Shown piece by piece: positions 22,387-24,011 of a DNA stretch of 64,000 bases. The translations under genes and the position numbers were made by a program. Source of the stretch: Pilatotrama ljubarskyi. Its lineage: Eukaryota; Basidiomycota; Agaricomycetes; Polyporales; Polyporaceae. A model generated the notes under the pieces. The model worked only from the letters and a program-made list of their open reading frames with translations, ran no database searches and had not been told where the DNA came from. Each line of letters starts with the position of its first letter. The first letter of the stretch is position 1. The stretch spans positions 62,001 to 126,000 of the forward strand of contig MU277735.1 of assembly GCA_022385805.1 (NCBI GenBank), read 5' to 3'.

Positions 22387-24011
22387 TTACACCACCACCG
22401 CTCGTGTCTCCTCCGTACCACTAGCCAAGTCGCCCGCCCGGGGAGGAGGATACTCTGTCATTATGTCCGCGAGGAGCTCCTCACCGCTGAGCGATCGCGC
22501 GACGAAGGTAATGCCGGGGTCAGGTACATGCGCAGGCGACGGCTTCTCCGATTGCTCCAGAGCAGTTCGCAACCGCTCCGTCAGAGAGTCTGACTTTGGC
22601 TCCTGCTCCTGCCATTCGTCCACGATCATGCCGAACTCGCTTGCGCCTTGAAGATGCGCCTCTTCCACGCCCTGACTGCCGTCAGCGATTGTGCCGGTCG
22701 GCGCCATATCGAGGGACGGGTCGTACTGGATCCCGTTCGCCATAGCAGTGTCGCCTACCAACGCATGTGTCCCGACCTTCGCCCACTCCTCTTCCAGCGT
22801 CGCCTCCCACCCGAGCTCCTTGCAGAGGTCGTGAACTCCGTCGTCGCACTTGCCGAGTAGAAGCACGTCGTCCGAGCGCATGCCGATATCGCCAGCGAAG
22901 TCCATGCTGATCAGGATGCGTGGGCAGCTCTGAGGAACCACGGCGGCGAGCGAGGCGAACGGCGGAGTGGCCAGCGATGTGCCGATGACGAAGAGCAGGT
23001 CTGCGCTGCTCAAATCCTGCGATTTTTCGGCGAATAAGGGGGGCGGCTGAATCACCGGTCAGCACCTTTCTCGTGAGACAGTGATTTCCACCGCCTGGAC
23101 GCACAGTCTCTCCGTGGAACACGATGTCAGGCTTCACAAGTCCGCCGCAAGATTCGCAGCGAGCAGCCTCGCCCTTCTCCACTGCCTCTCGCATCTTCGC
23201 ATCGTCGAACGGCTCATGGCAGTCTACACAGCTCTGGCTCGCGAAACTTCCGTTTGCTTCTACCAGGCGCTCAGGAGGGATACCGGCCTGCCGCTCAAGC
23301 GTGTCGATGTTCTCCGTGAAGCACATATGCAGTGATCCGCTGTCGGCGAGGAGCTTCACGAACGAATGCGTGGGGGTCGGTCTGTATTGGCCTGGAGAGA
23401 GCTCGCGCGCGAGCGTATAGACTGTCCAGGTTTCGCCGCGATCAGCAAGATGGACGGGACTCGGCGATGATCCACCACCACTTACGGGGTATGGGGTTAA
23501 AGCGGAAGTAGGTGAGCTCGAAGAGAGCGCGCGGATACGGGAGGTTGAGCCTCGCCATGATGGTCGACTGCGATGGAATTATGGAGTATAGAACTCATCA
23601 GGCGATGTTCAATAGGACCTCGTATAGATGACATTCCGTACATAGAGCCCTGCGCATGAAGGCGGACGCTCCGATGAGCCTGAAGATGCAGCACAGCCAG
23701 GTGGCCCTCACCTTTCTTCGGATACCTGAAGTCAGGTACGCCTGCCCCCGCGCTCGCCCCTGCGGTCCCACGTCGTACGTCAATCCTCCTGCATTTCGAG
23801 TTGCAAGATCACGCGCGTACCTGGCCCGAGCTGCGAGTCTATGCCTCAGTCAAGTTGCCTGTGGAGGACTCAGGTGCCGAGGAAATACCAGAACAAAGAC
23901 CCGCCGGCACTGCTCAGACTTCATGTACTTCGCGATCCCCACCACGTCCCTGGACTCGAGCACCTTCGTCGGCCCATCGTACAGCATGAGCAGCTCATCC
24001 GGGTCGTCCAT
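22387..24011 (-). CDS. Sirtuin paralogue A, probably catalytically inactive
   Basis: Seven exons (minus strand): 23889-24011, 23821-23830 (10 nt), 23712-23759, 23642-23649 (8 nt), 23486-23567, 23105-23421 and 22387-23046, giving 415 residues. The joined NAD motif reads GPGASAGAGVPDFR. The class I (Hst2/SIRT2-like) order follows: LNLPYPRALFELTYFRFNPIP, CFTENIDTLERQAG, EANGSFASQSC, zinc cysteines CVDC and CESC, KPDIVFHGE and VIGTSLATPPFASL. Compared with active sirtuins, the catalytic His (EAHGSF) is Asn, the QNID motif is ENID, GAGIS is GPGAS and FFGE is FHGE. The frame is intact, so it may work as a binding or scaffold protein. It lies 0.66 kb downstream of paralogue B. Confidence 0.88.
23642..23649 (-). 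other. 8-nt micro-exon of sirtuin A
   Basis: GGCTCTAT lies between GCGCAG and GTACGG. It supplies Gly-Leu-Tyr at the place of the conserved GLY before the LNLPYP helix and keeps the frame. Confidence 0.75.
23821..23830 (-). other. 10-nt micro-exon of sirtuin A
   Basis: CTCGGGCCAG lies between an acceptor (ACTCGCAG) and a donor (GTACGCGC). Only by including it does the FVL of exon 1 run in frame into the GASAGAGVPDFR exon, giving LGPG at the NAD-binding glycine loop. Confidence 0.75.

Follow-up and report, generated by a model that had tools for sequence, protein, structure and literature searches.

Sirtuins of class I remove acyl groups in a reaction that depends on nicotinamide adenine dinucleotide (NAD), and the histidine at position 187 is their general base (residue numbers are those of SIRT2 unless a copy A position is given). 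According to the accessible part of PMC12723449, the ribose is held at its 2′- and 3′-hydroxyls by Gln167 and His187 and Phe235 acts as guard of the channel for acyl-lysine, and in the accessible part of PMC11123952 residues 93, 131, 187, 235 and 239 are among those lining that channel. Here we describe a sirtuin gene, copy A, which stands in tandem with a canonical twin, copy B, in a 64,000-nucleotide stretch of Pilatotrama ljubarskyi DNA (contig MU277735.1, positions 62,001 to 126,000; hereafter the window). In this Trametes-like wood-rotting fungus the gene beside the active twin has lost catalytic residues and yet is intact in relatives, so that it is probably still functional.

Copy A scores 159.4 bits against the Pfam SIR2 cut-off of 24, has the four zinc cysteines of sirtuins, and matches SIRT2, SIRT3 and Hst2 in the PDB by sequence and by fold, SIRT2 being the best solved relative. 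On balance it is probably a maintained Hst2 paralogue that gave up deacylation and works by binding beside the active copy B; the loss of deacylase activity, the binding role and the link to copy B are what we infer from the sequence changes described below.

Active site of copy A

The original prediction had listed for copy A the zinc cysteines, the GTSL loop, EANGSF with Asn for the catalytic His, ENID, GPGAS and FHGE, and all of these are present; what did not stand was the canonical counterpart given for GPGAS, as the P-loop of copy B reads GAGVS and not GAGIS. Where active class I deacylases have the HG motif copy A has NG (Asn147), and the Gln of QN(I)D is Glu127. The changed active-site columns comprise Ala85 to Pro, Gln167 to Glu, His187 to Asn and Phe235 to His, and, beyond those listed earlier, Thr89 to Ala, Ile93 to Val, Phe131 to Leu, Leu239 to Pro, Val266 to Thr and Asn286 to Ser. 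Nine further changes fall at conserved columns outside the active-site list, while Asn168, Asp170, Asp95-Phe96-Arg97 and Gly-Thr-Ser are retained.

A column counted as conserved if 90% or more of 47 canonical-type rows agreed in it. Past its micro-exons, copy A has changed 7 of 21 conserved active-site columns and 3 of 86 others (Fisher p=3.6e-4), and over the whole domain 10 of 31 and 9 of 102 (p=0.0026). The changes thus strike the active site more than chance would allow. The NAD part of the column list holds the sites that we take to belong there; with the list confined to residues named in two papers, 6 of 14 are changed against 4 of 93 others (p=2.6e-4). Copy B shows no change at any of the 31 conserved active-site columns or the 102 others.

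Loss of the general base makes deacylation by copy A unlikely, in partial support of the earlier statement that the His replacement is inactivating. The replacement is not proof alone, since the class M sirtuins (SirTM), as presented in the available text of PMC4518038, carry Gln in this place and ADP-ribosylate proteins. As in a pseudoenzyme, catalytic residues are lost with the fold kept; a maintained pseudoenzyme should also be under purifying selection, and constraint on copy A is clear at the protein level.

Orthologues and the order of site changes

A homologue search with copy A found 537 proteins, the best 120 of which were considered and 119 tabulated, the two-domain protein P0003 being left out. 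Among these tabulated best matches His occupies site 187 in 111 rows, the eight exceptions all belonging to the A family, and Glu occupies site 167 in 14, which are the Trametes-clade A rows. For a 60-row tree our gene model of copy A took the place of the public protein P0002; P0092, P0121 and P0122 were excluded, and the T. sanguinea gene models P0013 and P0018 were kept as two rows of one species. The tree was built without columns 167, 187, 233-235, 262, 263, 266, 268, 286 and 288 and with columns 131, 239, 168, 170 and the zinc cysteines. Misread micro-exons make the N-terminal part of the alignment unreliable in several A rows, and the tree and the per-species counts use the region after the micro-exons.

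The search for copy A orthologues in related fungi, which had been proposed as a check, found them in many species across the Polyporaceae, and the A family forms a single clade (100/99). It splits into eight rows from Daedaleopsis, Fomes, Ganoderma, Lentinus, Dichomitus and Epithele (99/97) and 13 Trametes-clade rows from 12 species (100/92). In the former group the site is near canonical except in Lentinus brumalis and in Epithele, whose orthologue has Ser85, Val89 and Lys97. Every one of the 23 B rows and of the 16 outgroup rows in the tree set has both Gln167 and His187. In 12 species the A row and the B row very probably share one contig (the contigs are equally long), and the tandem pair is hence taken to be old.

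The Asn in L. brumalis (P0017) replaces the catalytic His in a site that is otherwise canonical, and is either a separate loss of His or a natural single-residue change.

Within the Trametes clade, Gln167 to Glu and Phe131 to Leu occur in all 13 rows and Phe235 to His in 12 of them, the exception being T. elegans on the first branch. Sites 131, 167 and 235 each changed once on the tree, and sites 168 and 170 and the four zinc cysteines did not change. The minimum number of changes was at least three at site 239, at least four at 286, at least five at 233 and at 266, and at least six at 187. Whether the Asn at site 187 is fixed in relatives had been raised as a question, and it is not: among the 12 species there are two with Asn (Pilatotrama and T. 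cingulata), four with Gln (T. polyzona, T. maxima, T. meyenii and T. punicea), one with Tyr (T. gibbosa) and five with His (T. elegans, T. pubescens, T. sanguinea and two Cubamyces). T. cingulata shares Glu167, His235 and Ser286 with copy A as well as Asn187. Gln167 to Glu and Phe131 to Leu, followed one node later by Phe235 to His, are the shared changes and probably the founding ones. Change counts alone cannot separate loss of His from gain, and if a regain of His is deemed unlikely, it looks as though the fixed pocket changes came first and His was lost later, several times.

Gene model of copy A

As had been predicted, the seven exons, two of them micro-exons, splice in frame, and all six introns are of the GT..AG type (58-74 base pairs, bp); the full open frame encodes 415 amino acids (aa). 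The public P. ljubarskyi protein P0002 agrees with it over the first 303 of its 317 residues and lacks the conserved tail, the annotators having removed a further 55-bp intron from the last exon. The 415-aa frame is taken as the real one because, without that intron, the frame enters a tail that is conserved in the orthologues. The 55-bp stretch missing from P0002 is either an annotation slip or an alternative transcript. G+C content at third codon positions is 0.745 in copy A and 0.698 in copy B, with 0.557 in the copy A introns, which does not indicate codon decay.

In both copies the micro-exons of 10 and 8 bp code for the P-loop Leu-Gly-x-Gly and for Gly-Leu-Tyr, those of copy B lying at 26062-26071 and 25885-25892. 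They seem to be misread in the public models P0001, P0008, P0010 and P0012 of the A family and P0038, P0048, P0052 and P0061 of the B family; P0001, for one, reads through into intron 1.

Constraint on copy A

Pairs of the 12 Trametes-clade species have a mean identity of 0.82 over exon 1 and 0.75 over the core; the value falls to 0.38 in the linker and is 0.78 in the tail that follows it (residues 346-400). Letting the rate vary improves the fit greatly over a single rate (log-likelihood -4403 against -4584, gamma shape 0.59), and 122 of 309 gap-free columns are invariant, where 200 uniform-rate simulations on the same tree gave 38±6 and at most 53. Uniform-rate evolution of the Trametes-clade A proteins, as in a simple pseudogene, is rejected by this simulation, and not by the ratio of nonsynonymous to synonymous rates (dN/dS). 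About 738 amino-acid changes on the tree would be expected to bring about 31 stop codons if there were no constraint, and the 12 listed proteins contain none. The dN/dS between copies A and B is 0.17-0.19 in the core (dS 1.3-1.45) and 0.50 over residues 300-415 (dS 1.83), and is given little weight because it mixes the time before and after the loss.

The tail has no Pfam match in the last-exon frame of copy A, and in a poor predicted model of P0004 (mean predicted local distance difference test score, pLDDT, 58.5) the one element seen is a helix at 351-362, within a block whose mean pLDDT is 47. When the tail region of P0014 served as query, 18 proteins were recovered, namely 16 of A type, among them P0014 and two new ones, P0121 and P0122, and the B rows P0061 and P0052.

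The original prediction held that copy A is maintained and not in simple decay, and its full length, its presence in many related species and its strong, uneven constraint agree with that. We conclude from these protein comparisons that copy A is constrained, somewhat relaxed relative to copy B, and that the constraint would lie on the fold and the tail more than on the catalytic residues.

Proposed history and competing explanations

Copy A would be the Pilatotrama member of an old tandem Hst2 paralogue of the Polyporaceae, in which the Trametes-clade ancestor may have given up NAD-dependent deacylation. Fixation of Glu167 and Leu131, then of His235, would have struck both the contact with the ribose and the channel for acyl-lysine; thereafter the catalytic His and Asn286 may have been free to vary, His being lost independently in several lineages. 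The sirtuin fold, zinc ribbon, Asn168/Asp170 and C-terminal tail would have stayed under purifying constraint. The role left to copy A would most likely be binding, the reshaped channel and the tail gripping a partner protein, or else a ligand that is acylated or of NAD type, with no turnover, beside the active copy B. It may also be regulatory; the original prediction had put forward a binder of acyl-lysine proteins and a regulator of the neighbour, both of which are putative roles. A more specific form of this proposal, which we put forward tentatively and regard as less than likely, is that the Trametes-clade A genes are a neofunctionalised lineage, in which the once-only Glu167, Leu131 and His235 would have made a non-catalytic sensor of acyl-lysine or NAD state acting with copy B, and His was then lost in parallel.

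Several observations weigh against a maintained binding protein. The catalytic His is kept in 5 of the 12 Trametes-clade species, the public protein P0002 is cut short at 317 aa, and copy A has evolved 1.95 times as fast as copy B (55 species pairs). A B row is present for 15 Trametes-clade species, and four of these (coccinea, versicolor, menziesii and cinnabarina) are without an A row of their own among the best 120 of the 537 matches, where their rows may sit inside 90% clusters. The proteins compared are annotated ones, among which lost or broken copies are missed, and gene models can hide breaks.

The higher rate, the recurrent loss of His, the poorly conserved linker and the four species without an A row would also suit a gene under relaxed selection that is heading to loss, its intact frame and uneven conservation being leftovers of an active past or of weak use. 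We think this unlikely, given that the invariant columns far exceed the simulated number, that stop codons are absent, that the tail has stayed conserved long past the change of the site, and that the new states at 131, 167 and 235 were fixed and then kept.

Copy A could also still be an enzyme with changed chemistry, an ADP-ribosyltransferase, NADase or deacylase of unusual acyl groups, in which Glu167 and His235 replace the Gln/His pair at the ribose. The fixed or nearly fixed state of these two residues and the presence of Asn168, Asp170 and Gly-Thr speak for it, as do the Gln at site 187 in four species and the ADP-ribosyltransferase activity of Gln-bearing class M sirtuins in the available text of PMC4518038. 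Site 187 is free to be Asn, Gln, Tyr or His, and there is variation at Asn286 and Val233 too, unlike what a conserved new active site would show. Membership of class M itself was rejected by the features given in that source, as copy A has NG and not QG, GTSLATP and not GVGx[NT]TP, and no fused or linked macrodomain; Pfam finds no macrodomain in copy A, and the macrodomain matches in the genome lie only on another contig, C33. An enzyme of this kind is in our view quite improbable.

A sequencing or assembly error as the source of Asn147 has next to no chance and was rejected, as the Asn recurs in T. cingulata and the residue is Gln or Tyr in five further species, even if P0002 may come from the same assembly and so gives no independent check.

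Surroundings and other sirtuins

Copies A and B have the same number of exons, exons 2, 3, 4 and 6 being of equal size, and copy B is identical to P0022, a protein of P. ljubarskyi (Polyporaceae). Other SIR2-family matches in the genome lie on contigs C2, C10, C21, C22, C30 and C52; the two copies are taken as each other's close kin in the genome because these matches, as listed, are only 29-36% identical to copy A. The positions of the genes, residues and neighbouring frames are collected in Table 1.

Table 1. Features at the tandem sirtuin locus, in positions of the window
Feature	Position	Strand	Basis and remarks
Copy A gene (7 exons; protein of 415 aa), paralogue of Hst2/SIRT2 type, altered active site	22387..24011	-	Gene model; Pfam SIR2 E=1.2e-46; exons 24011-23889, 23830-23821 (10 bp), 23759-23712, 23649-23642 (8 bp), 23567-23486, 23421-23105, 23046-22387
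Micro-exon of 10 bp, copy A, P-loop Leu-Gly-Pro-Gly (copy B: Leu-Gly-Ala-Gly)	23821..23830	-	Gene model
Micro-exon of 8 bp, copy A, part of Gly-Leu-Tyr	23642..23649	-	Gene model
Glu127 for SIRT2 Gln167 (ribose contact)	23312..23314	-	Coordinate from exon table; Glu in 13/13 Trametes-clade tree rows
Asn147 (AAC) for catalytic His (SIRT2 His187)	23252..23254	-	Gene model, alignment
Zinc ribbon, Cys155, Cys158, Cys179, Cys182 kept	23147..23230	-	Alignment; no change in 60-row tree
His193 for SIRT2 Phe235 (acyl-lysine channel)	23114..23116	-	Coordinate from exon table; His in 12/13 Trametes-clade rows
Ser243 for SIRT2 Asn286	22906..22908	-	Coordinate from exon table
Conserved C-terminal tail, residues 346-400	22435..22599	-	Identity 0.78 (12 species); 48/54 identical to T. 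cingulata
Copy B gene (7 exons; protein of 410 aa), canonical sirtuin of Hst2 type, tandem neighbour	24669..26256	-	Gene model; Pfam SIR2 E=3.1e-60
Open frame converging on copy A	21519..22202	+	Pfam Peptidase_S9 match (alpha/beta hydrolase type)
Open frame	28296..29018	-	Pfam Peptidase_S28 match

P0003 of Armillaria novae-zelandiae (682 aa) carries a tandem pair of SIR2 domains. The second one reads EARGSF, with Arg for His, GITFSDE and GTSLTMPSF, and seems to be a separate duplicate of this type of gene in which the catalytic His was lost. A search with this second domain gave 871 matches, 120 of which were listed. The searches with the P0014 tail and the P0003 domain added 59 new rows, 58 of them with His at site 187 and Gln at site 167; the fragment P0122 stops short of these sites.

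Comparison with known systems

No described class I sirtuin family in which catalytic residues were lost and the gene was kept was found in the mostly open-access literature covered, which is weak evidence of absence. Nothing relevant was found there on Hst2 duplication in basidiomycetes or on sirtuins of white-rot Polyporales, and nothing usable on sirtuins in Trametes (among the titles listed), on Pilatotrama or on SIRT2 H187A structures. If the proposal is true, the Polyporaceae would hold a natural series from near-canonical sites (Fomes, Daedaleopsis, Ganoderma) through His without Gln (T. elegans, Cubamyces) to sites without His. Such a series would show a route from eraser to binder of acyl marks, and which sirtuin residues are needed for binding and which for turnover; if the Trametes-clade A proteins are sensors, an eraser would have turned into a reader.

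With the class I sirtuins of Hst2/SIRT2 type (copy B, yeast Hst2, human SIRT2 and SIRT3) copy A shares ancestry, fold, zinc ribbon, Asn168/Asp170 and Gly-Thr-Ser, and it differs from them at Gln167, His187, Phe131, Phe235, Leu239, Val266 and Asn286. It resembles the class M sirtuins, as far as the available text of PMC4518038 describes them, in the replaced catalytic His (Gln in SirTM, Asn in copy A and Gln in some of its orthologues), whereas SirTM ADP-ribosylate proteins and have the GVGx[NT]TP motif and a linked or fused macrodomain, both features being absent from copy A. The class IIa histone deacetylases are alike in having a deacetylase fold with one catalytic residue changed and a proposed role as acetyl-lysine readers in the accessible part of PMC12383505, but are unrelated, non-sirtuin enzymes, so that the likeness is one of analogy. 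FAM118A and FAM118B, as described in the accessible part of PMC12700824, are likewise two sirtuin paralogues acting together, but they belong to SIR2_2, and a mutation of the active-site His or Asn in either halts their joint activity, so that neither is shown there to be a pseudo-sirtuin.
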